Positions 1-59,533 of a DNA stretch of 61,794 nt are shown in pieces. This DNA comes from Burkholderiaceae bacterium (GTDB lineage: Bacteria; Pseudomonadota; Gammaproteobacteria; Burkholderiales; Burkholderiaceae_C). Each line of letters opens with the position of its first letter. The stretch's first letter is position 1. The stretch spans positions 1-61,794 of the forward strand of contig JANJVG010000061.1 in the NCBI GenBank assembly GCA_024710165.1, in the 5' to 3' direction. Position numbers and translations under genes: made by a program. Below the pieces are notes generated by a model. The model had not been told where the DNA came from. It saw only the letters and a program-made list of their open reading frames with translations, and ran no database searches.

Positions 1-1878
1 ATCGAGCTGCCCCTGGCCTGGGAGTTCGCCCCCGAGGACGAATTCGGCTTCGCCGACCTGGCGCGCGACTACTTTTCTGCCAGCGCCACGCTGGCCGAGC
101 AGGCCGGCGCTCTGTTCGCCCTGTACGAAGCGCCGCACTACTTCCGCCGCGCCGGCAAGGGCCGCTTCAAAAAGGCCCCGGCCGAGATCCTGCAGCAGGC
201 GTTGGCCGCCATCGAGAAGAAGAAGGCGGTGATGCAGCAGATCGCCGACTGGGCCGAGCAACTGGGCCGGGGCGAGTGCCCGCAGCCCATCCGCGACCAG
301 CTCTACAAGATCCTGTTCCGCCCCGACAAGAACGCGCCCGAATACAAGGCCGTGGTCGAGGCCAGCCGCGCCACGCACACCGCGCCTTTGGCCCTGCTGC
401 AAAAGGCCGGCGCCATCGATTCGAGCTACCAGTTCCACTGGAAGCGCTTCCTGTTCGACAATTTCCCCAAGGGCACGGGCTTCCCCGCCGTCACCGCGCC
501 GCAACCGCCCGAAGATCTGCCCCTGGCCGCCGTACAGGCCTACTCTATCGACGACTCGCAGACCACCGAAATCGACGACGCGCTCTCCGTGCAGGGCCTG
601 GGCACAGGCACCGTGGTGCTGGGCATCCACATTGCCGCGCCAGGCCTGGCCATCCAGCCCGGCAGCGAGCTGGACAAGCTGGGCCGCAACCGCCTGTCCA
701 CCGTCTACATGCCGGGCTACAAGATCACCATGCTGCCCGACGCCGTGGTGCAGATCTACACGCTGGATGAAGGCCGGGCCAACCCGGCGGTTTCGCTGTA
801 TGCGACCATCGACGAAGCCACGCTGGAGATCACCGCCACCGAAACGCGCCTGGAGCGCGTGCCCGTGGTGGCAAACCTGCGCCACGACCAGCTCGACCAC
901 ATCGTGACCGAGGCCTGGCTGCAAGACCCATCAATTCAGCACGAAAACACACCCCAGCCATTGCTGGACAAGCGCGAGCAGCTATCTTTTTTGTACCGCC
1001 TGGCGCTCAAACTGAAGGCCGGGCGCGAACTGGTGCGCGGCAAGCCCGAAACCTTCAACCGCCCCGACTACACCTTCCGGCTGCACGGCAACGACGGCGC
1101 CGAGCCGCAGGGCACGGAAACCGTCACCATCGGCACGCGCAAGCGCGGTGCGCCGCTGGATCTCATCGTGGCCGAAGCCGCCATCGTGGCCAACAGCACC
1201 TGGGGCAGCATGCTGGCCGAGCACGGCGTGCCCGGCCTCTACCGCAGCCAGGCCAGCCTGGCGCCCGGCGTGAAGGTGCGCATGGGCACCAAGGCGCTGC
1301 CGCACGCGGGCATCGGCGTGAAAAGCTACGCCTGGGCCACCTCGCCGCTGCGCCGCTACACCGACCTGGTGAACCAGTGGCAGATCATCGCCTGCGCGCG
1401 CCATGGCAAAACCGCTGCGCTGGCTGCACCCTTCAAGCCCAAGGACGCCGACCTGTTCTCCATCCTCAGCAGTTTCGACGCCGCTTACAGTGCCTACAAC
1501 GGCTACCAAGCCGGCATGGAGCGCTTCTGGACGCTCAAGTATGTAGAGCAGAACGGCATCACCGAACTCACGGCGACCGTGTTCAAGGAAGGCCCGGGCG
1601 GAAGTTTTCTGGTGCGCGCGGACGATCTGCCACTGGTCTTCCCCGTTCTCGGCGCGCAGAACCTGCCGCGCGGCGCGCGCATCCGCGTGCGGCTGGGCGA
1701 GGTCGATGAGATCACCCTCGACGTGCACGGCACACTGATCGAACGCCTGGACGACCCGCAGGACAGCAGCGACGACGGCCCGGTTCAGGAGGACGAAGAC
1801 GACGAAGCCGTGGCAGGCCCGATCGCCATTGCCGTCGATGTGAACGAGGCCGACAGCGCCGAAAATCCGACCCCGTGA
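1..1878 (+). CDS. RNB-domain ribonuclease (RNase II/R family), 5' end missing
   Basis: A 3'-to-5' exoribonuclease that degrades single-stranded RNA in the cytoplasm. The reading frame is open from base 1, so the start lies outside the window; 625 codons are visible. The RNB catalytic signature, with its cluster of metal-binding aspartates (D-D-S-x-T-x-E-I-D-D-A), lies at about bases 545-590, and the family motif R-R-Y-x-D-L lies near 1351-1370. A beta-rich C-terminal part (about 1560-1740) resembles an S1/OB fold, followed by an acidic tail. RNase II of E. coli is 644 residues, so little is missing. Bases 954-992 are a copy of repeat C read in frame, just before the conserved helix encoded near 993-1040. 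Whether it is closer to RNase II or RNase R cannot be told without a search. Confidence 0.9.
   Translation: MELPLAWEFAPEDEFGFADLARDYFSASATLAEQAGALFALYEAPHYFRRAGKGRFKKAPAEILQQALAAIEKKKAVMQQIADWAEQLGRGECPQPIRDQLYKILFRPDKNAPEYKAVVEASRATHTAPLALLQKAGAIDSSYQFHWKRFLFDNFPKGTGFPAVTAPQPPEDLPLAAVQAYSIDDSQTTEIDDALSVQGLGTGTVVLGIHIAAPGLAIQPGSELDKLGRNRLSTVYMPGYKITMLPDAVVQIYTLDEGRANPAVSLYATIDEATLEITATETRLERVPVVANLRHDQLDHIVTEAWLQDPSIQHENTPQPLLDKREQLSFLYRLALKLKAGRELVRGKPETFNRPDYTFRLHGNDGAEPQGTETVTIGTRKRGAPLDLIVAEAAIVANSTWGSMLAEHGVPGLYRSQASLAPGVKVRMGTKALPHAGIGVKSYAWATSPLRRYTDLVNQWQIIACARHGKTAALAAPFKPKDADLFSILSSFDAAYSAYNGYQAGMERFWTLKYVEQNGITELTATVFKEGPGGSFLVRADDLPLVFPVLGAQNLPRGARIRVRLGEVDEITLDVHGTLIERLDDPQDSSDDGPVQEDEDDEAVAGPIAIAVDVNEADSAENPTP
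954..992 (-). repeat. Repeat C copy 1, inside the ribonuclease gene
   Basis: By eye, bases 954-985 match the reverse complement of the intergenic copy at 40335-40389 at 28 of 32 positions. The tract then runs into T-rich sequence, as other copies do. It is translated in frame as part of the ribonuclease. Confidence 0.75.
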
Positions 1879-3070: not shown

Positions 3071-3925
3071 ATGACCTCTTGCCCCCCCTCCCCCGACCTG
3101 TACTGCGTGATGGGCAACCCCGTGGAGCACAGCCGCTCCCCGTGGATCCACGCCCGCTTTGCCGAACTCACCAGCCAGCGCCTGGTGTACGAGCGCCGTC
3201 TGGTGCCGCTGGACGGCTTTGCCCAGGCGCTGCGCGACTTCGCCGCAGGGGGCGGGCGCGGCTGCAACATCACCGTGCCCTTCAAGCTCGAAGCCGCGCA
3301 GGCCGCCACGGTGCGCAGCGAGCGCGTGCAGCTGGCCGGCGCGGCCAACACCCTGAGCTTCATCGACGGTGCCATCCACGCCGACAACACCGACGGCCTG
3401 GGACTGGTGGCCGACATCGAACAGGGTGCCGGTTTCGCCCTGGCCGGGCGTGACGTGCTGCTGGTGGGTGCGGGCGGCGCCGCCGCCGGGGCCCTGGGCC
3501 CGTTGCTGGCCGCCGGGCCGCGCCGCGTGGTGGTGGCCAACCGCACGCTGGAGCGCGCGCAGGCGCTGGTGCAATCGCATGCCGCGCTTGCAGTGCTACG
3601 AAAAACAGAGCTACTAGCGCATGCTCCACAAGGACTTGAGCATGATTTCGACCTCATCATCAACGCCACGGCCAGCAGCCTGGCCGGCGCCGGGGTGCCC
3701 GTGCCCGCACGTGTGCTGCGCCCCGGCAGCCTGGCCTACGACATGATGTACGGCACCGCCGCCGAAGGCTTCCTCGGCTGGGCGCGCCAGCACGGTGCAA
3801 CACCGCGCGACGGCCTGGGCATGCTGGTGGAACAGGCGGCAGAGGCCTTCCACCTCTGGCGTGGCGTGCGCCCACCCAGCGCCCAGGTGCTGGCCGAGCT
3901 GCGCGCGCTGATGGCCGCGCACTGA
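3071..3925 (+). CDS. aroE: Shikimate dehydrogenase
   Basis: Reduces 3-dehydroshikimate to shikimate with NADPH, in aromatic amino acid synthesis in the cytoplasm. The 284 residues match the usual family size. The N-terminal substrate domain has G-N-P-V-x-H-S-R-S-P (15-24), N-I-T-V-P-F-K with the catalytic lysine K72, and N-T-D-G with D108. The nucleotide fold starts at G-A-G-G-A-A-A, followed by N-R-T for NADPH binding. Bases 3601-3643, between the N-R-T motif and the D-F-D-L-I-I-N-A-T motif, are a copy of repeat C translated in frame as a variable linker. mtgA follows after 19 bases, so the two are probably co-transcribed. Confidence 0.95.
   Translation: MTSCPPSPDLYCVMGNPVEHSRSPWIHARFAELTSQRLVYERRLVPLDGFAQALRDFAAGGGRGCNITVPFKLEAAQAATVRSERVQLAGAANTLSFIDGAIHADNTDGLGLVADIEQGAGFALAGRDVLLVGAGGAAAGALGPLLAAGPRRVVVANRTLERAQALVQSHAALAVLRKTELLAHAPQGLEHDFDLIINATASSLAGAGVPVPARVLRPGSLAYDMMYGTAAEGFLGWARQHGATPRDGLGMLVEQAAEAFHLWRGVRPPSAQVLAELRALMAAH
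3601..3643 (+). repeat. Repeat C copy 2, inside aroE
   Basis: The tract AGAGCTACTAGCGC, a short loop, then AAGGACTTGAGC matches the intergenic copy at 59478-59533 (ATAGCTGCTAGCGC ... AAGGGCTTGAGG). It is read in frame, giving roughly K-T-E-L-L-A-H-A-P-Q-G-L-E-H. Confidence 0.6.
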
Positions 3926-4736: not shown

Positions 4737-4782
4737 ATAGCCGATATACAGCAAGCGCAAGCAGCTATTAAATTTATAGCTT
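4737..4782 (-). repeat. Repeat C copy 3, abutting the ruvC start
   Basis: An AAGCGCAAGCAGCTATTAA core followed by an A/T-rich end, with a decayed left arm. The element ends one base before the ruvC ATG, so it makes up the ruvC leader. No clear Shine-Dalgarno sequence remains there. Confidence 0.7.
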
Positions 4783-6291: not shown

Positions 6292-6296
6292 GAAGT

Positions 6297-6390
6297 GGCC
6301 CCCACGTTCGCTCACTGCGTGTGCTCTCTGCCCCCCAAGGGAGCCCTCGCGCCTTGGGGCGGCCCGGCGGCGCTCGTGGGCGCGCCCGCG
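6297..6390 (+). repeat. Repeat A, copy 2, between gspG and gspH
   Basis: The same GGCCCCCACG start, central C-run/G-run palindrome and CTTGGGGCGGCCC end as 1883-1956, with an extra GC-rich tail. It interrupts the otherwise tight secretion operon and could form a hairpin that reduces read-through into gspH. Confidence 0.7.
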
Positions 6391-6400
6391 TGACAGTGCT

Positions 6401-7209: not shown

Positions 7210-7216
7210 AGTGAAA

Positions 7217-7337
7217 CACCCCCCTGCGGCCCTGCGGGCCTTCCCCCCGCTCTCGCAACGCTACGCGCTGCGGGCAAGGGCAAGCTCCCTGCGCGGCGGG
7301 GCGGCCCTTGCGCGGGAGCCCTGGCCTGGGCCGCGCC
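7217..7337 (+). repeat. Repeat B, copy 2, between gspI and gspJ
   Basis: The same order of blocks as 1965-2087 (CCCCCCTGCGG, CTTCCCCCCGCTCTCGC, CGCTACGCGCTGCGGG, GCGGCGGGGCGGCCCTTGCG, CTGGGCCGCGCC). It is the second repeat lodged in the secretion operon. Confidence 0.75.
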
Positions 7338-7383
7338 AATTTCATGCGTTGCGAGTGTTCCCTGCGCGGACTGGACAGCCGAT

Positions 7384-11705: not shown

Positions 11706-13919
11706 ATGACCTCCCTGACCAAGCACCGCCTGCATTTTGCTATTACAACAATAGCTGCAGGCGCTTTGCTGGCAAGCGCCAGCGGCCTTATTCATGCACA
11801 AACCGCCATCGACACCGGCACCGCCAGCGTGCGCCCGGGCGAGCCGGTCACGCTGAACTTTGCCAATGCCGACATCGAGGCCGTCGCGCGCACCATGGCC
11901 ACCATCACCGGGCGCAACGTGGTGGTGGACCCGCGCGTCAAGGGCCAGCTCAACCTGGTGACCGAACGCGCCGTGACACCCGCCGCCGCCTTCCAGCAGT
12001 TTCTGGCAGCGCTGCGGCTGCAAGGCTTCACGGTGGTCGAGGCCGCAGGCCTGTACAAGGTGGTGCCCGAGGCCGATGCCAAACTGCAGGGCGGCAGCGT
12101 GAGCGTGGCCCAGGCGGGCAGCAGCGGGCCGGCGGGCGGGCAGATCGTCACGCAGATCTTCAAGCTCAACTACGAAAGCGCCAGCAACCTGGTGCCGGTG
12201 CTGCGCCCGCTGATCAGCCCCAACAACACCATCAACGCCAACCCGGGCACGAATGCGCTGGTCATCACTGACTACGCCGACAACCTGCAGCGCCTGGGCA
12301 AGATCATTGCCGCCATGGACGTGTCCAACGCCAGCGACGTCGAAATCATCCCGCTGCGCCATGCCCTTGCCACCGATCTGGCCCCGCTGGTGGCGCGGCT
12401 GATCGATGCAGGGGGCAACGGCCTGCCCGGTGCCACCGGGGCAGCCACGGCAGGCCCAGCCGACTCCTCGGTCAAGACCACGCTGCTGGCCGAACCGCGC
12501 AGCAATGCCCTCGTCCTGCGCGCTGCCAACCCGGCACGCCTGGCCCAGGCACGCGCCCTGGTGGCCAAGCTCGACCAGCCCGCCGCCCCGGGCAGCAGCG
12601 CCGCCAGCGGCAATATCCATGTGGTGTACCTGAAAAACGCCGACGCCACCAAGCTGGCCACCACGCTGCGCGCCGCCATGGCCGCCAGCGGTGCGGGCCC
12701 GGCGGCGGGCAGCGCCAGTGCCGGTGCCCCCTCCACCAGCACGGCACCGCAGTCCGGCACCGGGCTGGGTGGCACCAGCAGCAGTGGCGGGCTGGGCGCC
12801 TCCGGCACTGGCAGCTTGGGCAGCGCCAGCAGCAACCAGCCCTCCACGGGCGGGCAGATCCAGGCCGACCCGACGACCAACTCGCTCATCATCAGCGCGC
12901 CCGAGCCGCAGTACCGCCAGTTGCGCGCCGTGATCGACAAGCTCGACGGGCGCCGCGCGCAGGTGCTGGTCGAGAGCCTGATCGTCGAAGTCAACGCCAA
13001 CAAGCTGGCCGAGTTCGGCATCCAGTGGCAGGGGGTGATGGGCAAGCAGGGCGATGGCGCCATCGGCGTGATCGGCACCAACTCGGGCACCTCGGGGGCC
13101 AATATCCTGGGCATCACGGCGGCGCTGGCCTCGGGTAACGCCGGCACCCTCGGCACGGCCGTGGGCACCCTGGGCGGCGGCCTCAACTTCGCGCTGGCGC
13201 CCCGCGTGGGCGGGCAGTACTACCTGGGCGCGCTGGCCAACTTTTTGCAGAACAGCGGCGACGCCAACGTACTCTCCACCCCCAACCTGATGACGCTGGA
13301 CAACGAAGAGGCCAAGATCGTCATCGGCAACAACGTGCCCTTTGTCACCGGATCGTATGCCAACACCGGCGGCAACACCGGCGCGGTGAACCCCTTCACC
13401 ACCGTCGAGCGCAAGGACGTGGGCCTGATGCTGCGTGTGCGCCCGCAGATCAACGAGAACGGCACCGTCAAGCTCGCGATCTACCAGGAGGTCTCAAAAA
13501 TCGACGACGCCACCCTCAAGAACGTGAATGGCCCCACCACCAGCAAACGCTCCATCGAGTCCAACGTGCTGGTCGAGGACGGCAGCATCATCGTGCTGGG
13601 CGGCCTGCTGGAAGACAGCTACTCGCAGGGCGAGGACAAAGTCCCCTTCATGGGAGACATTCCCGTCGTGGGCAACCTGTTCCGCAGCGAAAGCCGCTCG
13701 CGCAAGAAGACCAACCTGATGGTTTTTCTGCGCCCCGTGGTGGTGCGTGACGCCAATGCCAGCGACGCGCTGATGATGGACCGCTACGAAACCATCCGCG
13801 CCTTGCAGCAGGCCGTGCAGCCCAGCCCCAGCAGCGTGATGGGTTCGGTCTCGGGCGCGCCGATTCTGCCTTCTCTGCGGGTCACACCCGCCACACCGCA
13901 AAAACAACCGGCCCAGTGA
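11706..13919 (+). CDS. gspD: Type II secretion secretin GspD
   Basis: The outer-membrane secretin channel through which folded exoproteins leave the cell. It is 737 residues: signal peptide about 1-31, N0 domain ([17 protein letters not shown]), N1 to N3 domains, then the secretin core with V-P-F-V-T-G and the C-terminal [14 protein letters not shown] Ser/Gly-rich linker of about 55 residues lies inside the N3 region (near 330-385). The hydrophobic core of the signal peptide (residues about 10-28) is encoded by a copy of repeat C. No GspS pilotin or S-domain helix is obvious. The stop lies within the first codons of gspE. Confidence 0.95.
11735..11790 (+). repeat. Repeat C copy 4, encoding the GspD signal-peptide core
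   Basis: A full-length copy: TTTTGCTATTA, spacer, ATAGCTGCAGGCGCTTTGC, then AAGCGCCAGCGGCC. It is read in frame as [16 protein letters not shown], the hydrophobic segment of the secretin signal peptide. Confidence 0.85.
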
Positions 13920-13921
13920 CG

Positions 13922-15310
13922 ATGCGCCACCCCCTGCCCTACGCCTTCGCCCGCACCGCCCAGCTGCTGCTGGAGGACGACGGCCAGCAGCTTGTGCTCT
14001 GGCACGGGCCCACCCCCGACACCGCGCTGCTCAGCGAGGTGCTGCGCAAGCACGCCGTGCGCGAGCTGCAACCACTCGACGCCCACACCCTGGCCGAGCG
14101 CATCAGTGCGGCCTATGCGCAGGGCGAATCGAGCGCCGCCACGGTGGTGAGCGAGGTCGAAGAAGGTGCCGACCTCTCGCGCATGATGCAGGAGCTGCCC
14201 GCCGTCGAAGATTTGTTGGAGGCCGCGGACGACGCACCCATCATCCGCATGCTCAACGCCCTGCTCACACAGGCCGCGCGCGACGGCGCGAGCGACATCC
14301 ACATCGAGCCCTACGAGCGCCACAGCAGCGTGCGCTTTCGCGTCGACGGCACGTTGCGCGAGGTGGTGCAGCCCAACCGCGCACTGCACGCCGCGCTGAT
14401 CTCGCGCCTGAAGATCATGGCCGAGCTGGACATTTCCGAAAAACGCCTGCCGCAGGACGGCCGCATCAGCCTGCGCCTGGGCACCCGCGCGATTGACGTG
14501 CGCGTCTCCACCCTGCCCAGCGCCCACGGCGAGCGCGCCGTGCTGCGCCTGCTGGACAAGAGCGAAAGCAAGCTGAGCCTGGAGGCCGTGGGCATGCAGG
14601 GCGAGACGCTGCGCCGCTTCACCGGCCTGATCGCCCAGCCGCACGGCATCGTGCTCGTCACCGGCCCCACGGGCTCGGGCAAAACGACCACGCTGTACGC
14701 CGCGCTCTCGCGCCTGGACGCCACGCGCAACAACATCATGACGGTGGAAGACCCCATCGAGTACGAGCTGCCGGGCGTGGGCCAGACGCAGGTCAACAGC
14801 AAGATCGACCTGACATTTGCCAAGGCCCTGCGCGCCATCCTGCGCCAGGACCCGGACATCATCATGATCGGCGAGATCCGCGACTTCGAGACCGCGCAGA
14901 TCGCCATCCAGGCCTCGCTCACCGGCCACCTGGTGCTGGCCACGCTGCACACCAACGACGCCGCCAGCGCCGTCACGCGCCTGACGGACATGGGCGTGGA
15001 GCCGTTCCTGCTGAGTTCGTCCCTGCTGGGCGTGCTGGCGCAGCGCCTGGTGCGCAAGGTGTGCACGCACTGCGGGGGCAAGGGGTGCGAGGCCTGCGGC
15101 CAGACCGGCTACTCCGGGCGCACCGGGGTGTTTGAGCTGCTGGTGACCAACGATGCCATCCGCGCGCAGATCCACAACCAGGCGTCCGAGGCGGACATCC
15201 GCGCCGCTGCGCTGGCGGATGGCATGACGCTGATGCGCGACGATGGCGAGCGGTTGATTGCTGCGGGCATCACGAGCCGTGAGGAAGTGTTGCGGGTGAC
15301 ACGGGACTGA
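13922..15310 (+). CDS. gspE: Type II secretion ATPase GspE
   Basis: A hexameric cytoplasmic ATPase that powers pseudopilus assembly. It is 462 residues from the ATG; an overlapping GTG six bases upstream (13916) is an alternative. Walker [11 protein letters not shown] lies near residue 248, followed by the Asp box (T-V-E-D-P-I-E-Y), Walker B ([10 protein letters not shown]) and the His box (A-T-L-H-T-N-D). The cysteine module is compact: C-T-H-C, four residues, C-E-A-C. In the classical enzymes the two pairs are separated by roughly 30 residues. No gspF follows: the next element is a repeat and then a transporter gene. Confidence 0.95.
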
Positions 15311-15326
15311 TATTTTTGGTGTTTTT

Positions 15327-15374
15327 GCGCTCTTGCGCTTGTGATACAAGCGCAAGTAGCTATGTTTTTGATAG
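15327..15374 (-). repeat. Repeat C copy 5, downstream of gspE
   Basis: GCGCTTG, short loop, CAAGCGC, then AAGTAGCTATGTTTTTGATAG. This is the usual palindrome plus the AGCTAT flank. The rest of the 260-base gap up to the SulP gene shows no gene or other recognisable element. Confidence 0.75.
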
Positions 15375-15570
15375 TTAATTCTGCCTTTTTTTTAGGGCGG
15401 GTGCCGGAATATGCCCCCGGGGGAGGCAGCCGCTTGTCGTGTCGCGCCAAGAAAAATGTGCCCCTGCCACGGCGAGACCCGGCCCCCGCCCCCCACAAAA
15501 AACTTGTCAGAAGCACAAAAGCCCGGCCCACTACACTGCCCGCACACCTCCCACACCTCCTGCGCCTGCC

Positions 15571-18325: not shown

Positions 18326-19936
18326 ATGGCAGCACAGCACCATGATGTGGTGATCGTTGGCGGCGGCCTGGCCGGCATCGTCGCGGCGCTCGAATGCCTG
18401 CGCGCGGGCCACAGTGTCGCGCTGGTGGACCGCGACACGCCCGAGCGCCTGGGCGGCCTGGCCCTGTGGGCCTTTGGCGGCATGGCCCTGGTGGGCACGC
18501 CGCTGCAGGCGCGCATGAAAATTCCCGACACGCCCGAACGCGCCCTGCGCGACTGGCTGCGCTTTGGCGAGATAGACCCCGACGACACCTACCCCCAGCA
18601 ATGGGCGCACTACTACGTCGAACACTCACGCGCCCAGGTGTACGACTGGCTCATTGGGGAAGGTGTGAAGTTCATGCCCGCCGTGAACTGGGTGGAGCGC
18701 GGCATGCAGGGCGACGGCAACAGCGTGCCGCGCTACCACATCGTGTGGGGCACCTCGCGCGAACTCACGCGGCGCATGGTGGCGCAGATGCGCGCTGCCG
18801 ACAGCGGCGGCCGCCTGACGCTGCTGCACGGCCACCGCGTATCCCAGCTCGACCATGCGGGCGGGCGCATTGCGGGTGCCGTGGCCGTCAACGAAGCCAC
18901 GGGCACCGAAGTGCGCCTGCAAGCCCCGGTGGTGATTCTCGCCATGGGCGGCATCAACGGCAGCCACGCCGAGACCCGGCGCAACTGGCCCAGGCACCGC
19001 CCCCTGCCCGCCACGATGCTCAACGGCGCACACCCTTTTGCCGACGGCGCAATGCACCACCACGCCGCCGATCGCTGGGGCGCGCAGATCACCCACGCGG
19101 GCGAGATGTGGAACTACGCCGCAGGCTTCCCGCACCCCTTCCCGCACTTCGAGGGGCATGGCCTCTCGACCATTCCGTGCAAGTCGGCGCTGTGGCTCAA
19201 CCACCGGGGCGAGCGCATCGGCCCCGAGCCGCTGGTCACCGGCTTTGACACCCACTGGCTCTGCCAGCGCGTGGCTGCGCAGGAGAAGCACTGGACCTGG
19301 CACCTGCTCAACTGGCGCATCGCGGCCAAGGAATTTGCCATCTCGGGCGCAGAGCACAACCAGCGCATCCGCGACATGCAGTTTCCCCTGTTCCTCAAGG
19401 AAACGCTGCTGGGCAACCACCGGCTGGACAAGCAACTGGCCGCCGAGAGCCGCCACTTCCTGGTGGACGACACCTTGGCCGGGCTGGCAGCGAAGATGAA
19501 CGCGCTGACCTGTTCGCACGACATCCAGCCTGAAGTGCTGCAGGCCACGGCCGATGCCTTTGACGCCAACTTCGCCAACGGCGCGAAGCTGCACAACGAC
19601 GACCAGATCCGCCGCATCCTGCACGCACGCCAGTGGGGGCCGGACAAGCTGCGCACCTGCCCACCCGCGCCGCTGCAAATGAAGGGCGCGGGCCCGTTCA
19701 TCGCCATCCAGATGCAGCTCATCACGCGCAAAAGCCTGGGCGGGCTGCGCACCGACCTGCACAGCCGCGTGCTCGATGGCGCAGACCAGCCCATCAGCGG
19801 CCTGTACTGCGTGGGCGAGGCAGCGGGCTTTGGCGGCGGTGGCGCCAGTGGAAAACGCTCGCTGGAAGGCACCTTTTTGCCCGGCTGCATCCTCACGGCG
19901 CGTGCGGCGGCACGGCATATTGCTGCCGGAAAATAA
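18326..19936 (+). CDS. FAD-dependent oxidoreductase (fumarate reductase / ketosteroid dehydrogenase-like)
   Basis: A 536-residue flavoprotein. The N-terminal dinucleotide-binding motif is V-I-V-G-G-G-L-A-G-I-V-A-A-L-E, and a C-terminal FAD segment reads G-L-Y-C-V-G-E-A-A-G-F-G-G-G-G. It belongs to the FAD-binding-2 family with fumarate reductase flavoproteins and 3-ketosteroid dehydrogenases. The actual substrate is unknown. A clear ribosome site (AGGAGA) lies seven bases before the ATG. It is followed by a ThDP-dependent enzyme on the same strand, with a repeat C copy between them, and preceded by a divergent AraC-type regulator. This suggests an inducible catabolic module. Confidence 0.82.
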   Translation: MAAQHHDVVIVGGGLAGIVAALECLRAGHSVALVDRDTPERLGGLALWAFGGMALVGTPLQARMKIPDTPERALRDWLRFGEIDPDDTYPQQWAHYYVEHSRAQVYDWLIGEGVKFMPAVNWVERGMQGDGNSVPRYHIVWGTSRELTRRMVAQMRAADSGGRLTLLHGHRVSQLDHAGGRIAGAVAVNEATGTEVRLQAPVVILAMGGINGSHAETRRNWPRHRPLPATMLNGAHPFADGAMHHHAADRWGAQITHAGEMWNYAAGFPHPFPHFEGHGLSTIPCKSALWLNHRGERIGPEPLVTGFDTHWLCQRVAAQEKHWTWHLLNWRIAAKEFAISGAEHNQRIRDMQFPLFLKETLLGNHRLDKQLAAESRHFLVDDTLAGLAAKMNALTCSHDIQPEVLQATADAFDANFANGAKLHNDDQIRRILHARQWGPDKLRTCPPAPLQMKGAGPFIAIQMQLITRKSLGGLRTDLHSRVLDGADQPISGLYCVGEAAGFGGGGASGKRSLEGTFLPGCILTARAAARHIAAGK

Positions 19937-19949
19937 ACATCAAATCAGA

Positions 19950-19995
19950 CTCTAGCGCTTATCCATCAAGCGCAAATAGCTATATAAAAGAGAGC
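19950..19995 (-). repeat. Repeat C copy 6, forming the leader of the ThDP-enzyme gene
   Basis: TCTAGCGCTTATCC, then AAGCGCAAATAGCTATATAAAAGAG. The A/T-rich end of the element runs into the purine-rich AAGAGAG that can serve as the ribosome site for the ATG at 19999. Confidence 0.75.
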
Positions 19996-19998
19996 ATT

Positions 19999-21654
19999 AT
20001 GAACGGCGCACAAGCCCTGATGAAAACCCTGGTCGATGCCGGCATCGAGGTCTGCTTCACCAACCCCGGCACGAGCGAGATGCACTTTGTGGCCGCGCTC
20101 GACAGCGAGCCGAAGATGCGCGCCGTGCTGGCCCTGTTCGAGGGTGTGGCCACGGGCGCGGCGGATGGTTATGCCCGCATGGCCGACAAGCCCGCCGCCA
20201 CGCTGCTGCACCTGGGCTGCGGCCTGGGCAATGGCCTGGCCAACCTGCACAACGCGCGCAAGGGCAAGGTGCCTGTGGTCAACATCGTGGGCGACCATGC
20301 CACCACCCACACGCAGTACGACGCGCAACTGCAAAGCGACATCGAAACCGTGGCGCGCAACGTGTCGCCGGGCTTCGTGCGCACCTCGCAGAGCACTGCG
20401 GCGCTGTGCCAGGACGCGACGGATGCCATCACCGCCGCACGCGGCCTGCCGGGCCAGGTGGCCACGCTGATCCTGCCCGCCGACGTATCGTGGGGCGAAG
20501 GCGGCGTGCCCTGCCCCCCGCCCCCCGCCCCCATGCCCCCAGCGGCTGACGACGCCACGGTGGAGCGCATCGCCCAGGCCGTGCGCTCAGGCAAAAAGAC
20601 CGCACTGCTGCTGGGCGGGCAAGCCCTGCGCGAGCCCAGCCTGCTGGCCGCTGCACGCATTGCTGCGCACTGCGGCGTGCAGCTGCTGGCCGAAGTCTTC
20701 CCCACCCGCATGGAGCGCGGCGCGGGCCTGCCCAGCGTGGAGCGCATTGCCTACCTCGCGGAAATGGCGGGCGTGCAGCTCGCCCCCATAGAGCACCTGA
20801 TCCTGGTGGACGCCAAGGCGCCCGTGTCCTTCTTTGCCTACCCCGGCAAAAAGAGCTACCTCGTGCCCGACACCTGCACCGTGCACCCGCTCTGCGCCCC
20901 CACCCAGGATGCGCGCGCCAGCCTGGACAAGCTGGTGCAGGCCCTGGGCGCGGCGCAGGCCCAGCCCGCGCTGCAGGCCCCGCAGCGCCCCGGCCGCCCG
21001 CGCGGTGCGCTCACCGCCCCCAAGGTGTGCAAGGCCGTGGGCCACCTGCTGCCCGAGAACGCCATCCTCATCGACGAGGCCATCACCTCCGGCCTCATGC
21101 TCAATGTGATGACCGCTGGCGGCCCGCGCCACGATCTCATCACCCTCACGGGCGGCGCCATCGGCCAGGGCCTACCCAACGCCGTGGGCGCAGCCATTGC
21201 CTGCCCGCAGCGCCCGGTGATTGCGCTGATTGGCGACGGCACGGCCATGTACGCCATCCAGGCGCTGTGGACCATGGCGCGCGAGGGGCTCAACGTGACC
21301 GCCATCATCTTCAACAACGCGTCGTACTCGGTGCTGAACGTGGAGCTGGAACGTGTGGGCGCCGAAGATGCTGGCCCCAAGGCCAAGTCACAGCTCGACC
21401 TGAAGGGCCCGGTGCTGCACTTCGCCCAGCTCGCCCAGGGCATGGGCGTGCATGCCGTGCGCACCGATGCAGCAGAGGGCTTTTGCAAGGCGCTGGAATA
21501 CGCGCTGGCCCATCCTGGGCCCCACCTCATCGAGGCCGTGGTGCCCGAGTCGCTCTCCGGCGCCAAGCGCAAGGTGCTGCCCTGGCTGCTGCGCTCGCTG
21601 CCGAGCTTGCCGCCAGCGGTGGCTCGGGCGCTGAAACGGAAGATTGCGCCTTGA
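19999..21654 (+). CDS. Acetolactate synthase large-subunit-like ThDP enzyme
   Basis: A 551-residue thiamine-diphosphate enzyme of the acetolactate synthase/benzoylformate decarboxylase superfamily. The ThDP-activating glutamate (E48 in A-L-F-E-G-V-A-T-G-A-A-D-G-Y-A) is present, and the cofactor motif G-D-G-T-A-M-Y ... N-N-A-S-Y starts near residue 412. No small regulatory subunit gene is adjacent, and the partner gene is an FAD dehydrogenase, so a catabolic role is more likely than branched-chain amino acid synthesis. It could act on 2-oxo acids or acyl-CoA substrates; the sequence alone does not decide. Confidence 0.82.
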   Translation: MNGAQALMKTLVDAGIEVCFTNPGTSEMHFVAALDSEPKMRAVLALFEGVATGAADGYARMADKPAATLLHLGCGLGNGLANLHNARKGKVPVVNIVGDHATTHTQYDAQLQSDIETVARNVSPGFVRTSQSTAALCQDATDAITAARGLPGQVATLILPADVSWGEGGVPCPPPPAPMPPAADDATVERIAQAVRSGKKTALLLGGQALREPSLLAAARIAAHCGVQLLAEVFPTRMERGAGLPSVERIAYLAEMAGVQLAPIEHLILVDAKAPVSFFAYPGKKSYLVPDTCTVHPLCAPTQDARASLDKLVQALGAAQAQPALQAPQRPGRPRGALTAPKVCKAVGHLLPENAILIDEAITSGLMLNVMTAGGPRHDLITLTGGAIGQGLPNAVGAAIACPQRPVIALIGDGTAMYAIQALWTMAREGLNVTAIIFNNASYSVLNVELERVGAEDAGPKAKSQLDLKGPVLHFAQLAQGMGVHAVRTDAAEGFCKALEYALAHPGPHLIEAVVPESLSGAKRKVLPWLLRSLPSLPPAVARALKRKIAP

Positions 21655-22261: not shown

Positions 22262-22474
22262 ATGTCCATCTTCGCCCGCCCCCACTACACCTCCGACGCC
22301 ACACAGTTCATCAACCAGCTCAAAAAAGACCGTCCCGAGCTGGACGCCCAGCAACAGGCCGGCCGCGCGCTGCTGTGGGACAAACAGGTGGACCGGGGCC
22401 TGTGGCAACAGTTCAAGGCCGCACGCGTGGCGCAAAAGCCTTATGCCTACCAGACGGAACCGGACAACCGTTAA
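22262..22474 (+). CDS. DUF3460 family protein
   Basis: A 70-residue cytoplasmic protein of unknown function found mainly in Burkholderiales. It begins M-S-I-F-A-R-P-H-Y-x-S-D-A-T-x-F-I, and the family pattern D-K-Q-V-D-R-x-L-W-Q-Q-F-K-A-A-R-V-A-Q-K-P-Y-A-Y-Q is clear. Its usual place is directly upstream of scpA, as here. No catalytic motif is visible. Confidence 0.88.
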   Translation: MSIFARPHYTSDATQFINQLKKDRPELDAQQQAGRALLWDKQVDRGLWQQFKAARVAQKPYAYQTEPDNR

Positions 22475-22476
22475 GA

Positions 22477-22533
22477 GCCAAAAAGGCCTCCAGCGCTTGT
22501 CCAGAAAGCGCTGAAAGCTATTATTTTGAAAGC
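22477..22533 (-). repeat. Repeat C copy 8, between DUF3460 and scpA
   Basis: A full-length copy: GCCAAAAAGGCCTCC, AGCGCTTGTCC, AAGCGCTGAAAGCTATTA. It fills the gap and ends five bases before the scpA ATG. Confidence 0.8.
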
Positions 22534-22537
22534 AGCA

Positions 22538-23404
22538 ATGGGTCACCCCACCGCCGTCGAGGCCACTGACCTGCCTTCGGTCCTGGGCCCGGCGGCGCTG
22601 GGCGGTATGCCCGAGGTGGTGGACCAGGTCGCGCTGGCGCGCCTGTACGGCGAGCCGCTGTTTGCGCTGCCCACCGACCTGTACATCCCGCCCGACGCGC
22701 TGGAGGTGTTTCTGGAGGCCTTCGAGGGGCCGCTGGATCTGCTGCTCTACCTGATCCGCAAGCAGAACTTCAACATCCTCGACATTCCGATGGCCGGGCT
22801 CACGCGCCAGTACCTGGCCTACGTGGACGAAATCCGCAGCCGCAACCTGGAGCTGGCGGCCGAATATCTGCTGATGGCGGCCATGCTCATCGAGATCAAG
22901 TCGCGCATGCTGCTGCCGCCCAAGAAGCAGGCCGGCGCCGACGAGGCCGAAGACCCGCGCGCCGAGCTGGTGCGCCGCCTGCTCGAATACGAACAGATGA
23001 AGCTTGCAGCCCAGCAGCTGGGCCAACTGCCGCAGTACGGGCGCGACTTTCTCAAGGCGCAGGTCCATATCGAGCAAAGCCTGCAGCCCCGCTTTCCCGA
23101 CGTGCATGTGCAGGACCTGCAGGAGGCCTGGCGCGACATCCTCAAGCGCGCCAAGCTCGTACAGCACCACAAGATCACGCGCGAGGAACTCTCGGTACGC
23201 GAAACCATGGGCCAGGTGCTCAAGGCGCTGAAGGGGCAGCGGTTTGTGGAGTTCGAGGAGCTGTTCAATCCCGAACAAGGCTCGACCGTGCTCGTGCTCA
23301 CCTTCATCGCGCTGCTGGAGCTGGCCAAAGAAACGCTGATCGAGATCACCCAGGCCGAAGCCTACGCACCGATCTACGTCCGGCTGGCCTACGTACCGAC
23401 ATGA
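22538..23404 (+). CDS. scpA: Segregation and condensation protein A
   Basis: The kleisin subunit of the SMC-ScpAB condensin complex, in chromosome segregation. It is 288 residues from the ATG at 22538; a TTG 12 bases upstream is in frame. The N-terminal SMC-binding part contains F-E-G-P-L-D-L-L-L-Y-L-I-R-K-Q and I-L-D-I-P-M. The C-terminal winged helix ends with L-T-F-I-A-L-L-E-L-A-K-E ... Q-A-E-A-Y-A-P-I-Y. scpB and smc are not in the window. The stop codon lies at the left edge of a palindromic element. Confidence 0.93.
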   Translation: MGHPTAVEATDLPSVLGPAALGGMPEVVDQVALARLYGEPLFALPTDLYIPPDALEVFLEAFEGPLDLLLYLIRKQNFNILDIPMAGLTRQYLAYVDEIRSRNLELAAEYLLMAAMLIEIKSRMLLPPKKQAGADEAEDPRAELVRRLLEYEQMKLAAQQLGQLPQYGRDFLKAQVHIEQSLQPRFPDVHVQDLQEAWRDILKRAKLVQHHKITREELSVRETMGQVLKALKGQRFVEFEELFNPEQGSTVLVLTFIALLELAKETLIEITQAEAYAPIYVRLAYVPT

Positions 23405-32178: not shown

Positions 32179-34005
32179 CTATCTTGCCATGCCGACGCCC
32201 ACGCGGGCTTGATCCAGGGCGATTGCATCGATCTCAGCCGCCAGCCAGCCGCGCAGGCTGTTGATGAAGGCCCAGCCCTGCACGCGCGGCACATCGCTCA
32301 GGCGCACCACGGCTTCCTGCACGCGCCCCTCGCGCAGCGCCACGGCGCGGCCCACGCCGGGCAGCAGGCCGCAGGCCAGCGGCGGCGTGACCCAGCGGCC
32401 GTCCAGCAGCATGGCGATGTTGCCAAAGCTGCCTTCGGTGATCTCGCCCTCCTCATTCCACAGCACGGTATCGAACACCCCCGGCCCGGTCGGCGCGAAG
32501 GCCGCATAGTGCGCACGGCGCGTGGTTTTGTGGCGCACGAATTCGCCGTGCGCCTCCCGCAGCGGTCGGTCGGCCAGCCGCAGCCGCACGGGCTCGGGCG
32601 TGGGCTGCAGTGCAAAGGCTTCCGCACGCGGCATACCAGCCGGATCGAGCAGCAGGCGCACACGCCAGGCGCCCTGCGGGTGCCGGGCGGCAAGGGCCTG
32701 CAGGCACTGGTGAACAGCATCACCGGCCCAGGGGTGGTTGAAATGCGCCGCCGCCTGCTGCATGCGCGCAAGGTGCTCATCCAGATAGCGGAACTGGCCG
32801 CTTTGGAGCCGCAGGGTTTCCAGAAGGTCGAACGGCGTGCTGGCTCGCTCCACAAAGGCGCGCTTGTGGCGCCACTCATTCCACTCGGCGTCGGCTGTGG
32901 CATCTGCGGTGATGCCGCTGCCGATGCCGCACGAAGCCTGTGCCCCGCGCAGCACCACGGTGCGGATGGGTACGTTGAAGGTGGCGCGGATGCCGCCCGC
33001 GCCATCGGGCCGAACCACGCCGACTGCGCCGCAATAAAAACCCCGCGGGCCGCCCTCGAGCGCGCAAATGGCCTGCATGGCGCGCGCCTTGGGCGCGCCG
33101 GTGACCGAGCCGCAAGGGAACAGCGCGGCAAACACATCGACGAGCCGGGTGCCGGGCCGGGTGCTCGCCTGCACGTCCGACGTCATCTGCCACACGGCGG
33201 GCAGCGGCTCGGTGTGGAACAACCGGGGCACCTGCACGCTGTGCGGCGCGGCAATGCGCGAGAGGTCGTTGCGCAGCAGGTCCACGATCATCACGTTCTC
33301 GGCGCGCTCTTTGGGCGACTGGCGCAGCCCCTCGGCCTGCGCGGCATCCTGCGCAGCCGTGGTACCGCGCGGCGCCGTGCCTTTCATGGGCCGGGTGAGG
33401 ATGTCGCCACTGCCATCGGGTGCGGCGCGCCAGTCGAAGAACAGCTCGGGCGAGACCGACAGCACCTGCTCGCCGCCCATGTCGATGCAGGCCGCATAGC
33501 CGCCCGGCTGGGCGCGCTGCAGCGCGCCGAACAGCGCCGGCACCGCCTGCGGGCCGCCGCCCTGCAGCGTGGCTTGCAGCGGTGCGGTGTAGTTGACCTG
33601 GTAGTACGCGCCGCTGGCAATGTCCTGGTGGATGGTCTCCAGGGCGGCATCAAAGGCGGCTCGCTCGGGGAGCGTATGCCACTGCAGCGCAGGGGCATCA
33701 GCGGGCGGGGGCGACCCTGGCCAGGGCCAGGGCCGGGGCGCGTCGTGCACGGCGAACCAGGCCAGCGGCCCGTCCGCCGGGTACGTCTGCAGGGCCGTAT
33801 CAAAGGCCGAGGCGGCTTCGTAACGCAGCCCGCCCACGCACCAGGCACCCTGCTGCGCAGCCGCCTGCACGGCCTCCAGCACGGCGCGCACCTCGCCCGG
33901 CGCATGGGCCACCAACACCTGACGCGGCGCCCCGAAGGCCCCGCGCAGACGCGGCCCCGCAGCGTCCTGCGGATCGGTGAAATCAATCAGTGATTTATAT
34001 GCCAA
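32179..34005 (-). CDS. pabB: Aminodeoxychorismate synthase component I fused to aminodeoxychorismate lyase
   Basis: Makes p-aminobenzoate for folate. It is a 608-residue fusion. Residues about 1-365 are the chorismate-binding component I (S-G-A-Y-Y-Q-V-N-Y-T, M-K-G-T-A-P-R-G, R-N-D-L-S-R-I, G-S-V-T-G-A-P-K-x-x-A-M, G-x-Y-C-G-A-V-G). Residues about 385-600 are a class IV aminotransferase-fold lyase (PabC) with N-E-E-G-E-I-T-E-G-S and P-L-A-C-G-L-L-P-G-V. It starts with TTG; a GGAGG ribosome site five bases before it is supplied by a copy of repeat C. Partner PabA is not in the window. Confidence 0.93.
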   Translation of the reverse strand: MAYKSLIDFTDPQDAAGPRLRGAFGAPRQVLVAHAPGEVRAVLEAVQAAAQQGAWCVGGLRYEAASAFDTALQTYPADGPLAWFAVHDAPRPWPWPGSPPPADAPALQWHTLPERAAFDAALETIHQDIASGAYYQVNYTAPLQATLQGGGPQAVPALFGALQRAQPGGYAACIDMGGEQVLSVSPELFFDWRAAPDGSGDILTRPMKGTAPRGTTAAQDAAQAEGLRQSPKERAENVMIVDLLRNDLSRIAAPHSVQVPRLFHTEPLPAVWQMTSDVQASTRPGTRLVDVFAALFPCGSVTGAPKARAMQAICALEGGPRGFYCGAVGVVRPDGAGGIRATFNVPIRTVVLRGAQASCGIGSGITADATADAEWNEWRHKRAFVERASTPFDLLETLRLQSGQFRYLDEHLARMQQAAAHFNHPWAGDAVHQCLQALAARHPQGAWRVRLLLDPAGMPRAEAFALQPTPEPVRLRLADRPLREAHGEFVRHKTTRRAHYAAFAPTGPGVFDTVLWNEEGEITEGSFGNIAMLLDGRWVTPPLACGLLPGVGRAVALREGRVQEAVVRLSDVPRVQGWAFINSLRGWLAAEIDAIALDQARVGVGMAR

Positions 34006-34006
34006 A

Positions 34007-34055
34007 TTGGCCTCCAGCGCTTGAATTATAAGCGCTGTTAGCTATCAAAAACGAA
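34007..34055 (-). repeat. Repeat C copy 9, supplying the pabB ribosome site
   Basis: TTGGCCTCCAGCGCTTG, loop, AAGCGCTGTTAGCTATCAAAA. On the minus strand its end reads AGCGCTGGAGGCCAA, and the GGAGG is correctly placed for the TTG start of pabB. Confidence 0.8.
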
Positions 34056-34081
34056 GCAAATCTATGCTGGAACCTGTGGTT

Positions 34082-35200: not shown

Positions 35201-35250
35201 TTCAGTTATCCATTTCCGCGTGTGTAGCACCCGCGATGTATGAAACAGCA

Positions 35251-39335: not shown

Positions 39336-40346
39336 TCAGGCGCCTTCGCCCTTGGGTTCACGCTCCATCAGCGCGGCCACGGCCTCGTCGGGCCGCAGAC
39401 GGCCATCCAGCAGCGCCACCACGCCCTCGCTGATAGGCATTTCCACGCCCAGGTGACGGGCGCGCTGCACTACGGTGCGGGCGCAGTAAACACCCTCGGC
39501 CACATGGCCGAGCGAAGCCACGGCCTGCGCCAGCGTCCGACCCTGCGCCAGCAGCAGGCCCACACGTCGGTTGCGCGAGAGGTCGCCGGTGGCGGTGAGC
39601 ACCAGGTCGCCCAGGCCCGACAGGCCCATGAAGGTGTCCCCACGCGCGCCCAGGGCCAGGCCCAGGCGGGTGATCTCGGCCAGGCCGCGTGTGATGAGGG
39701 CGGCGCGGGCGTTCAGGCCCAGTTGCAGGCCGTCGCACAGCCCCGTGGCGATGGCCAGCACGTTCTTGACGGCACCGCCCACCTCCACGCCCACGATGTC
39801 GTCGTTGGCATAAACGCGCAGGCTGGGGCCATGGAAGCCGCGCACCAAGGCTTCGCGCACGCTGGCGTGCTCGCTGGCTGCCACCAGCGCCGTGGGTTGA
39901 GCACGGGCCACCTCCAGCGCAAAGCTCGGGCCGCTGAGCACGCCCGCTATCAAATCAGGAGCTACCTGCGCACGCACCTCGTGCGCCAGCAGGCCAAAAG
40001 ATTCAGAATTTTCTGTGGCCGCCTCGAAACCCTTGCACAGCCAGGCCACCGGCGCGCTGCAGCCGCGCAGCTGCACCAGCATGCCGCGCAGGCCTGCCAT
40101 GGGCGTGGCCACGATGACCAGATCGGCGGCGTCCGCCAGCGCTGCCACATCGCCACCGGCCACGGTCAGGGAGGGCGGCAGGCCGATGCCCGGCAGGTAG
40201 CGCAGGTTGCTGCGCAGCGCCTGCATCTCGGCCACCTGTGGGGCATCGCGCGCCCACAGGGTGACGGCATGGCCCGCCGGGTGCGCGGCCGCACTGATGG
40301 CCATAGCCGTACCCCAGGCACCGGCGCCAAGTACTACTATTTTCAT
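39336..40346 (-). CDS. gpsA: Glycerol-3-phosphate dehydrogenase [NAD(P)+]
   Basis: Reduces dihydroxyacetone phosphate to glycerol-3-phosphate for phospholipid synthesis. It is 336 residues. The cofactor motif is [18 protein letters not shown] and [13 protein letters not shown] (catalytic lysine) are present. The start codon and first codons (ATGAAAATAG) belong to the end of repeat C copy 11. A second copy of the repeat (39946-40000) is read in frame just before G-V-L-S-G-P-S-F. It is the last gene of the rhodanese-grxC-secB-gpsA run. Confidence 0.95.
39946..40000 (+). repeat. Repeat C copy 10, inside gpsA
   Basis: GCTATCAAATC, AGGAGCTACCTGCGC, loop, GTGCGCCAGCAGGCCAAAAG keeps the order, spacing and both outer flanks of repeat C. 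It is translated on the minus strand as [18 protein letters not shown]. Confidence 0.65.
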
Positions 40347-40389
40347 AGCTGCTCGCGCTTAACCAGCAAGCGCTGGAGGCCAAAAAGGC
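40335..40389 (+). repeat. Repeat C copy 11, between secB and gpsA
   Basis: TACTATTTTCATAGCTGCTCGCGCTTAACC, AAGCGCTGGAGGCCAAAAAGGC (given here in two parts). On the minus strand its AGCTATGAAAATAG end contains the gpsA initiation codon. It fills nearly the whole 49-base gap. Confidence 0.85.
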
Positions 40390-40395
40390 TAAAAA

Positions 40396-40854
40396 TTACT
40401 GCGGCAGTTGCGACGAAGGTGCGTCAGCGGCCTGGGCCTGCTGCTGCTCGTACATGGCCTGGAAGTTGATCTCTGCCAGGTGCACGGGCGGGAAGCCGGC
40501 ACGGTTGATGACATCGGCCACGTTGCCGCGCAGGTAGGGGTAAATGATCTGGGGGCAGGCGATGCCGACGATGGCGCCCATCTGGTCTTCAGGGACGTTG
40601 CGGATCTCGAAAATGCCGGCCTGCTTGGCTTCGACCAGGAACACCGTCTTGTCCTTGATGCGGGTGTGCACCGTGGCAGTGACGCAAATCTCGAAGATGC
40701 CTTCAGCGGCCGGCGCGGCTTCCACGCCGATCTGGATGTCCACACTGGGCTGTTCGGCTTCGAGCAGGATGGCAGGCGAGTTGGGCTGTTCGAGCGACAA
40801 GTCCTTGAGGTAGACGCGCTGGATCTGGAACACGGGATTTTCTTGGTCGGCCAT
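40396..40854 (-). CDS. secB: Protein-export chaperone SecB
   Basis: A tetrameric cytoplasmic chaperone that delivers unfolded precursors to SecA. It is 152 residues. [19 protein letters not shown] and C-P[20 protein letters not shown] are hallmark sequences. The ATG followed by A-D-Q-E-N-P is preferred over an upstream start. It lies between grxC and gpsA, the usual order in betaproteobacteria. Confidence 0.97.
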
Positions 40855-50060: not shown

Positions 50061-50120
50061 AATCAAAATGGGCTCAAGCCCTTATCTGAAAAGCGCTGGT
50101 AGCTATTTTAATAAGAGCAT
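50061..50120 (+). repeat. Repeat C copy 12, between rsmD and coaD
   Basis: GGGCTCAAGCCCTTATC, AAAAGCGCTGGTAGCTATTTTAATAAG (two parts). The AGCTAT and A/T-rich flank are conserved; the left arm is altered. Confidence 0.75.
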
Positions 50121-50121
50121 T

Positions 50122-50784
50122 TCAACCGGCGGGCCGCAGCAAATGCGCATGCACCATGCCGGCACGCAGATGGCGGTGCGGCGCCAGGCCCAGTGCGGAA
50201 AGGGCCTCGGCGCTCCACTGCTGCGGCGCCTCCAGGTACACAAAGCCCTGGGGCGCCAGCGCACGCGCGGCGGCCTGCAGGGCGGGCACGAACAGGGTGC
50301 TGTCAAACGGCGGGTCGATAAAAATCAGGTCAAGGCTGGCCGGCACGCACTGCTGCAGCGCCGCCAGTCCATCGCCCCGCCGAAGCTGCACAGTGCTGGC
50401 CTGCAGGCGTTGGCACCACTGGCCCAGCCGGGCCACCAGACCCGCGTCCTGCTCCACCAGCTGCACGCGGGCCGCACCGCGCGATGCGGCCTCCAGGCCC
50501 AGCGCGCCAGTGCCGGCAAAGGCGTCCAGGCAGCGCCAGCCGCTCAGGTCCTGGCCCAGCCAGTTGAACAGGGTTTCGCGCACGCGGTCGGGCGTGGGGC
50601 GCAGGCCGGGCAGCTGCGGCACGCTCAATCGCGTGCGCTTCCATTGCCCGCCGATGATGCGCACCTCGCCCGCGCCCTGCGGCACCGGCGGCTTGCGGGG
50701 TGTTTTGGGGGCCGCCACAGGCGCGGCCGCCGGGGGTTGGCGCAGGGCGGCCTGGGCCTGTGCGGGTGTCAGGCGCCGGCTCAT
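50122..50784 (-). CDS. rsmD: 16S rRNA (guanine966-N2)-methyltransferase
   Basis: Methylates G966 of 16S rRNA with S-adenosylmethionine. It is 220 residues. I-I-G-G-Q-W-K-R-T-R, R-P-T-P-D-R-V-R-E-T-L-F-N-W-L, the SAM motif D-A-F-A-G-T-G-A-L-G-L-E-A and the catalytic F-I-D-P-P-F-D are present. The N-terminal 38 residues are an Ala/Pro/Gln-rich extension compared with E. coli. The ATG overlaps the stop of the upstream M16 gene by four bases. Confidence 0.95.
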   Translation of the reverse strand: MSRRLTPAQAQAALRQPPAAAPVAAPKTPRKPPVPQGAGEVRIIGGQWKRTRLSVPQLPGLRPTPDRVRETLFNWLGQDLSGWRCLDAFAGTGALGLEAASRGAARVQLVEQDAGLVARLGQWCQRLQASTVQLRRGDGLAALQQCVPASLDLIFIDPPFDSTLFVPALQAAARALAPQGFVYLEAPQQWSAEALSALGLAPHRHLRAGMVHAHLLRPAG

Positions 50785-52127: not shown

Positions 52128-52150
52128 GGGATTGTCCCGGTGGTGTGGCA

Positions 52151-59423: not shown

Positions 59424-59477
59424 GGCTTCGGGCTCCACAGCAGGTCACGCGCCGGTGGCGCATAAGAACACCAGAAC

Positions 59478-59533
59478 GCTATTATTACTATAGCTGCTAG
59501 CGCTTATAAATCAAGGGCTTGAGGCACTTTTAT
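59478..59533 (+). repeat. Repeat C copy 14, upstream of cutA
   Basis: GCTATTATTACTATAGC, TGCTAGCGCTTATAAATC, AAGGGCTTGAGGCAC (parts). This is a nearly full-length copy in the 232-base gap between the cutA and hydrolase starts; the rest of the gap (59534-59655) is GC-rich with nothing recognised. Confidence 0.8.

Follow-up and report, generated by a model that had tools for sequence, protein, structure and literature searches.

REP/RAYT systems comprise short palindromic extragenic repeats present in high copy number. Repeats that are read in frame inside proteins are described for the Rickettsia palindromic elements and for YPAL, as insertions or fusions; in Yersinia, one YPAL copy makes up a portion of a predicted signal peptide (PMC2229807). 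The DUS and USS of Neisseriaceae and Pasteurellaceae occur in hundreds of copies or more, in and between genes, often with inverted pairs at gene ends, and with orientation and position biases in genes; point changes in existing sequence, not insertion, have been suggested as their origin (PMC1939737, PMC2346458). Two further sequences were reported as potential novel motifs of no known function (PMC5217627). GCTTAT(N)5AAGCG has 114 copies in Acidovorax ebreus, and of the 107 that are intergenic, 44 lie between convergent, 4 between divergent, and 59 between co-oriented genes. For Polaromonas naphthalenivorans the motif is ATAGCT(N)22CAAAAG, with 101 of its 125 copies intergenic.

The motif analysed here is closest in kind to DUS and USS, for which evolution in place and a settling at permissive sites within genes have likewise been suggested (PMC1939737, PMC2346458). 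Like them, it is overrepresented, reaches hundreds of copies, and has coding copies that appear to arise by substitution in place. It differs in its length (~60–70 bp versus a core of ~10 bp), in being more degenerate, and in its strong preference for spacers; it has no short dominant core of the kind found in Neisseria or Haemophilus. With REP/RAYT repeats it shares being short, palindromic, extragenic, and of high copy number, but it shows little covariation and no link to the presence of Y1_Tnp genes, and in the relative that we surveyed (G004) none of its copies adjoins the Y1_Tnp gene. It resembles the Rickettsia elements and YPAL in being read in frame inside proteins, but leaves protein length unchanged. 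The A. ebreus motif fits the reverse strand of our consensus exactly, and the P. naphthalenivorans motif fits its layout with two differences; both are very probably the same element. The motif itself was thus partly known before (PMC5217627). In-place origin, signal peptides, and coding frames are absent from the motif section of that paper, and in the open-licence listings that we searched we found no report of a location of this motif in signal peptides or of its in-place origin.

The window, the whole stretch of 61,794 nt that was analysed, is part of a 3.8 Mb draft genome in 225 contigs. Among the named gspD loci that we fetched, those of Acidovorax sp. 210-6, Comamonas granuli, and Simplicispira metamorpha were closest to its gspD. 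Motif copies lie both between and within genes (Table 1). The initial annotation had assigned one copy to residues about 10–28 of GspD and another (52067–52124) to residues 2–21 of an M16 peptidase, both in the same frame of the element. We confirmed both copies and delimited them with the refined profile, by which the gspD copy is slightly longer than first assigned (residues 9–32); ATA GCT stands in frame in each, and the M16 copy encodes residues 1–24 of MNAIKKIATHALLVSAGVVFCVQNAWA. Our home-made gene caller places the M16 start too late (52076), the true start being 52127 on the minus strand.

Table 1 Motif copies, genes carrying them, and a second repeat in the window.
Feature	Position	Strand	Remarks
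Weak motif copy in called gene 202-1878	954..995	-	Frame -2, E=5.7e-6
Second GC-rich repeat	1966-2036, 2020-2096, 7219-7316, 35215-35285, 49406-49553	both	80-85% alike
Weak motif copy in aroE (shikimate dehydrogenase)	3583..3649	+	Frame +1, E=3.3e-6; Pfam
Partial motif copy, largely ahead of called gene 4783-5331	4746..4782	-	E=2.8e-5
gspD, type II secretion secretin	11706..13919	+	Pfam Secretin E=4.8e-52, GspD N0 E=1.8e-26
Motif copy in gspD	11730..11801	+	Signal peptide residues 9-32, frame +0
Motif copy past called gene 13922-15310	15306..15381	-	E=5.9e-9
Intergenic motif copy	19925..20009	-	Profile search
Intergenic motif copy	22472..22545	-	Profile search
Intergenic motif copy	34004..34064	-	Profile search
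Motif copy over first codons of called gene 39336-40346 (-)	40322..40402	+	Profile search
Motif copy, spacer of called genes 49546-50034 / 50122-50784	50065..50124	-	Profile search
M16-family peptidase gene	50781..52127	-	Peptidase_M16_C E=1.3e-34 (Pfam)
Motif copy in M16 peptidase gene	52057..52136	-	Residues 1-24, frame +0
Intergenic motif copy	59471..59531	+	Profile search

We built a profile from six further copies in the window, excluding the two coding ones; it recovered the M16 copy at E=2e-10 and the gspD copy at E=9.2e-8. Its members lie between genes or at gene edges, some overlapping called edges by a few bases and the copy at 40322–40402 by ~25. The core ATAGCT-N4-GCGCTT-N7-AAGCGC, with up to three mismatches, matched 15 times in the window, where palindromic sites may be counted twice, whereas 100 shuffles gave 0.09 matches on average; it is exact in gspD and has one mismatch in M16. 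The genome to which the window belongs holds at least 150 matches: all 150 that were scored reached E<0.002, and the copy number is probably larger, because these were just 150 of 1414 first-look candidates. Matches were 60, 62, or 64 nt long in 18 of the 150 and 63 nt in the rest.

We surveyed 2.0 of the 3.97 Mb of G004, a close relative with a complete genome. Together with the window (2.06 Mb in all), this yielded 268 copies at E<=1e-4, 256 of them in G004. At E<=1e-6, G004 held 224 copies, of which 59 overlap genes by at least 20 nt and 165 lie outside genes; these 165, like the refined profile, include the M16 and SCO1 copies, whose genes were called with late starts. The 224 aligned copies contain no internal gap, and the 72 bits of information are spread over ~65 positions. 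The motif is ~60–70 bp long with nearly fixed internal spacing. Copies are ~60% identical to one another, and a search for bursts of near-identical copies among the 224 returned only two near-identical pairs. The 30 most similar pairs had a mean identity of 0.846 versus 0.791 in column shuffles, with four pairs above the shuffled maximum, and the standard deviation of identity (.067 versus.058) showed a modest excess of likeness; the copies are therefore not wholly independent. Of the 22 10-mers listed as most overrepresented in G004, the majority belong to the motif, with an excess of up to 68-fold, versus 6-fold for the top 10-mer in 400 kb of the motif-free G002. A short dominant core (~9–12 bp) was absent, the commonest motif 10-mer listed occurring 47 times in 2 Mb on both strands. 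Nor did motif-free genomes show a dialect of their own, as far as small samples can tell: neither the 400 kb of G002 nor stretches of 66–111 kb from other genera contained a strongly overrepresented long word.

The likeness of the gspD and M16 copies to the repeat sits at the DNA level. We recoded each protein synonymously 3000 times with the codon usage of the window and scored the results with a position matrix from 163 G004 copies outside genes, from which the G004 M16 and SCO1 copies were left out. The window gene starts scored 52.3 bits (gspD) and 61.1 bits (M16). Recoded gspD averaged -27.5 bits with a top score of 8.5, recoded M16 averaged -21.0 with a top of 20.1, and none of the 3000 recodings reached the observed score in either case. 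Together with the profile matches, this refutes the suspicion that the coding copies resemble the intergenic ones no better than chance would allow. The SCO1, LolA, DsbD, and SIMPL copies of G004 gave z values of 4.8 to 8.7, again with 0 of 3000 recodings each. We also compared codons among 21 motif-bearing GspD and 23 motif-bearing M16 orthologues, leaving out rows without an ATG start. Where residues agreed in a pair, the same codon was used in 2270 of 2741 cases in the GspD motif region (0.83, versus 0.70 in the rest) and in 3171 of 3667 in that of M16 (0.86 versus 0.64). Equal-sized windows elsewhere never reached this agreement (0/132 for GspD, 0/74 for M16). Residue identity, by comparison, was lower in the motif region (0.65 for GspD and 0.66 for M16 versus 0.76 elsewhere). 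As codon agreement is higher there although residues vary more, the constraint is largely in the DNA.

Convergence, in which an Ala/Leu-rich signal peptide would resemble the repeat by chance, could appeal to motif-free relatives that have signal peptides of similar sequence. It is scarcely credible given the outcome of recoding in all six proteins and given a codon conservation that, in the motif regions of gspD and M16, exceeds that elsewhere in these genes. The initial annotation had considered that orthologues outside the repeat-bearing lineage might encode the same N-termini with unrelated codons. This is borne out by half: the motif-free G002, G005, and G008 have similar signal peptides, and in gspD these are written with different codons, 102 of 424 same-residue codons agreeing between motif-bearing and motif-free sequences (0.24; rest 0.54). 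The picture for M16 is less clear (230 of 364, or 0.63; rest 0.53), and its motif-free orthologues retain part of the codons in the motif region.

Protein lengths point to an origin in place. Up to AWA, the M16 signal sequence measures 27 residues in the window and in the motif-free G002 and G005; up to AQ, that of GspD measures 32 in the window and in the motif-free G005, and 33 in G002 and G008. Since the signal peptides of the orthologues are equally long and stand in the same place, nothing of the size of the element was inserted. The motif-carrying stretch of TruB is 45 aa long in 29 of 30 fetched orthologues and 41 in G032. The motif was found there at E<=1e-3 in 20 of the 30 and more weakly in two (G021, G028), while eight, from genomes without the family, gave no match up to E=10. 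For CobS and a CobC-like phosphatase from loci of Acidovorax and Comamonas, most alignments between orthologues with and without the motif are gap-free; where they are not, among the motif-free rows listed (14 at most for each query), the gaps measure 1 to 3 residues. Matches to SCO1 span 200 aa in G002, G005, and G008, the same as the query stretch, and matches to LolA in the motif-free G002 and G005 are 3–4 residues longer than the query, both judged from coordinates only. In-place origin is thus read from alignment in five proteins and from coordinates only in two more. Of nine copies examined against orthologues, the one in aroE found no orthologue to compare, and that of L175 was rejected as an antisense artefact over gspD. 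A gain in length over empty sites was looked for in GspD, M16, TruB, CobS, and the CobC-like protein, and none was found. An insertion of 70 nt would add ~23 residues, and lengths are unchanged; the coding copies tested therefore appear to have arisen by substitution. By these comparisons, in-gene copies look like in-place point changes and not an inserted element.

Spacers gave a different picture. Those with the motif were longer by a median of 77 nt over 276 comparisons, a figure inflated by late-called gspD starts, which count the signal peptide as spacer. Where both sides carried the motif, the difference was 0.5 nt (98 comparisons), and by spacer length the comparison gave +40 nt over 10 motif pairs versus -3.5 over 62 pairs without it. 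Several motif-free spacers were shorter by roughly one element length and others were equal; in two spacers we saw both decayed copies in place and shorter, element-free versions. As motif spacers are often longer, intergenic copies may be insertions.

Signal peptides are a preferred site of the motif. Read in frame +0, it spells A-I-x-x-I-A-x-x-A-L-L-x-S-A, a run of small hydrophobic residues, and it occurs in this frame in four further exported proteins of G004, namely (by Pfam names) a SCO1 lipoprotein, LolA, DsbD, and SIMPL, the SIMPL copy (E=1.5e-4) lying just outside the 1e-4 cut of the survey. Copy B 184863 (E=2.7e-3) is signal-peptide-like too, but we judged it too weak to include. Copies centred in codons 3–35 were found in 5 of 284 signal-peptide-like G004 genes versus 3 of 1341 others (Fisher p=0.006), with the former defined by a crude home-made rule and genes called by simple scripts. 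The five (GspD, M16, SCO1, LolA, DsbD) all carry it in frame +0, and the three others, which by eye we take to be LigA-like, ProA-like, and PhhB-like, all in frame -1. The 46 further in-gene, in-frame rows, two of them in the window, were distributed over frames -1 (19), +0 (14), +1 (7), and others (6). Ten N-terminal rows in frame +0 comprised the window gspD and M16, five G004 signal peptides, and three that we judged false for weak starts or lack of export-like sequence (A 15866, A 190756, A 1173090); 15 other N-terminal rows and 13 start-less rows were not counted as signal peptides.

We then examined the motif across 60 genomes (the window's own and 59 relatives), with a ceiling of 89 scored candidates for each genome and with filters by which weak matches are missed. 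Matches at E<=1e-4 occurred in 28 of the 60. Within this limit of 89 candidates, no match was found in three genomes of the same genus (G002, G005, G008), in the family genera G026 and G030–G033, or in any of 24 genomes from other families. The gspD signal peptide carried the motif in 24 of 30 rows; of the six other rows, five come from genomes with no match and one from G034, which has seven genome-wide. For M16 it was present in 24 of 29 scored rows (weakly, at 18 bits, in G028) and absent from G002, G005, G026, G031, and G034; the M16 of G008 was dropped for want of a start, and starts are unsure for gspD in G034 and G024 and for M16 in G026 and G034. A profile from the window copies alone divided the gspD and M16 rows in the same way. 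The motif in gspD and M16 is linked, nearly all-or-none, with genome-wide presence. In the comparison of orthologues with and without the repeat that the initial annotation had proposed, the gspD and M16 motifs occurred only where the genome holds the repeat family, and recurrence across the family, which it had thought possible, is borne out by these counts and by the further exported proteins of G004.

In a gspD tree of 79 rows, 29 of them motif-bearing at >=30 bits, the state changes at least eight times on supported branches. The Giesbergeria-like L163 and L194 fall inside a bearing group and the Acidovorax L168 and L173 beside one, positions that suggest losses. Intermediate gspD scores (L177 24.5, L158 10.3, L218 8.3, L174 4.2; random G004 windows average -60.8) look like motifs in decay or growth. 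Independent pairs comparing the gspD motif with flank copies, with L155 and L191 (no start) left out, gave no significant association (median p 0.625), the flanks of at most 20 kb being a poor measure of genome content. As separate observations, 74 IMG/VR stretches (L333–L406) hold the exact motif core and may represent prophages flanked by host DNA, or else phage genes bearing the motif, and in G028, a single contig, the matches to comEC (1836740–1837544) and gspD (4028558–4030797) are split, by gene decay or sequencing errors.

What would place such a sequence inside conserved genes? The initial annotation saw in these export signals a mobile or selfish repeat that had been recruited ready-made. 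This did not survive the comparison with motif-free orthologues, whose signal peptides are equally long, and donation of an export signal is further contradicted by the same in-place pattern in TruB, CobS, and the CobC-like phosphatase, which have no such signal. Recruitment by insertion was accordingly rejected for the coding copies tested. A REP- or MITE-like element inserted at the 5' ends of genes draws on the AT-rich, palindromic copies that lie mostly outside genes (165/224), the tendency of motif spacers to be longer, the excess likeness of some copy pairs, the precedent of YPAL (PMC2229807), and the Y1_Tnp genes present in the own genome. Yet these genes occur in 46 of 60 genomes, including the motif-free G002, G005, and G008, the Y1_Tnp gene of G004 has no motif copy closer than 3 kb, and neither the gap-free G004 copies nor the unchanged lengths of the five aligned proteins suit insertion. 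Mobilisation by RAYT was rejected, as Y1_Tnp presence does not follow the motif, and we regard the mobile-repeat explanation as a whole as very improbable. Improbable, too, is that the motif works as a hairpin in RNA or in single-stranded DNA (a terminator, processing site, or transposase target), with coding copies as by-products. The inverted repeat AGCGCTT/AAGCGCT and the enrichment in convergent spacers (51/142, versus 9/207 in divergent and 115/697 in tandem ones) speak for it. Pairing across the 165 copies outside genes exceeded shuffles by 2–5 points at six of ten stem pairs (lowest p 0.056; mutual information p 0.04), but no pair stood clearly above shuffles, conserved blocks lie outside the stem as well, in-gene copies occur in both orientations, and Rfam 15 covariance models gave 0 matches in the window at the gathering score.

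Our preferred reading, which we consider probable, is that a ~60–70 bp DNA motif is, within genes, written by point changes wherever these are tolerated, signal peptides included. Such changes would rewrite existing gene sequence into the motif where the protein permits. The frame +0 peptide is of the kind that makes up the hydrophobic core of signal peptides, so that those of GspD, M16, SCO1, LolA, DsbD, and SIMPL could be overwritten without losing their role, and they are predicted still to export their proteins; cytosolic proteins would carry the motif mostly in frames other than +0. The likeliest driver, which we put forward tentatively, would be biased uptake or recombination of motif-bearing DNA, in the manner of an uptake signal. 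The presence of ComEC (51/60 genomes) and DprA (59/60) does not track the motif; comEC of G004 (by Pfam Competence) itself holds a copy (G004:C1:606999-607069, frame +0, E=7e-10). Next after uptake, and nearly as likely, comes a chromosome-organising or recombination protein that binds the motif, its sites being kept by selection and tolerated in genes. It would suit the long, gap-free motif, the irregular spread of copies (mean spacing 9.0 kb, cv 0.96), and the absence of the motif from single lineages, as after loss of one binder. Against it, strand polarity is inconsistent across four blocks (39+/26-, 34+/34-, 16+/34-, and 23+/18-, one of them skewed). Returning to biased uptake or recombination, a fuller picture is possible, if short of an even chance: a long recognition sequence kept in this way would mark many Comamonadaceae and would have rewritten core proteins, a secretion export signal among them, while lineages that lose the recogniser would lose the motif throughout the genome, their proteins still functioning with ordinary codons.

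On the reading of point changes in place, a DNA-level pressure would shape conserved proteins where they stand, with signal peptides as the preferred landing site, and repeats read in frame should not be taken for insertions. Close relatives with many copies and others in which none was found offer a natural experiment. Should the motif be an uptake signal, it would be, to our knowledge, the first long one in Burkholderiales, and DNA exchange within the family would become directly testable. In the Comamonadaceae, natural transformation is reported for Verminephrobacter eiseniae (PMC4212676).

Further features of these genomes drew our attention. A Y1_Tnp-family gene with an open frame of ~250 codons (G004:C1:2199726-2200052) recurs in relatives with or without the motif. 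The window contains a second, GC-rich dispersed repeat, CCCCCCTG...GGGCAGGGGGACGCCCCC, of ~70–77 nt, whose copies are 80–85% alike and lie in both orientations (Table 1). An inverted repeat of 35 nt, 91% complementary (41696–41730 and 41932–41966, 201 nt apart), might mark the ends of a small mobile unit. At 5893–7439, four neighbouring genes each have a stretch starting GGCTTCACCCT or a near variant, presumably as in type II secretion pseudopilins.
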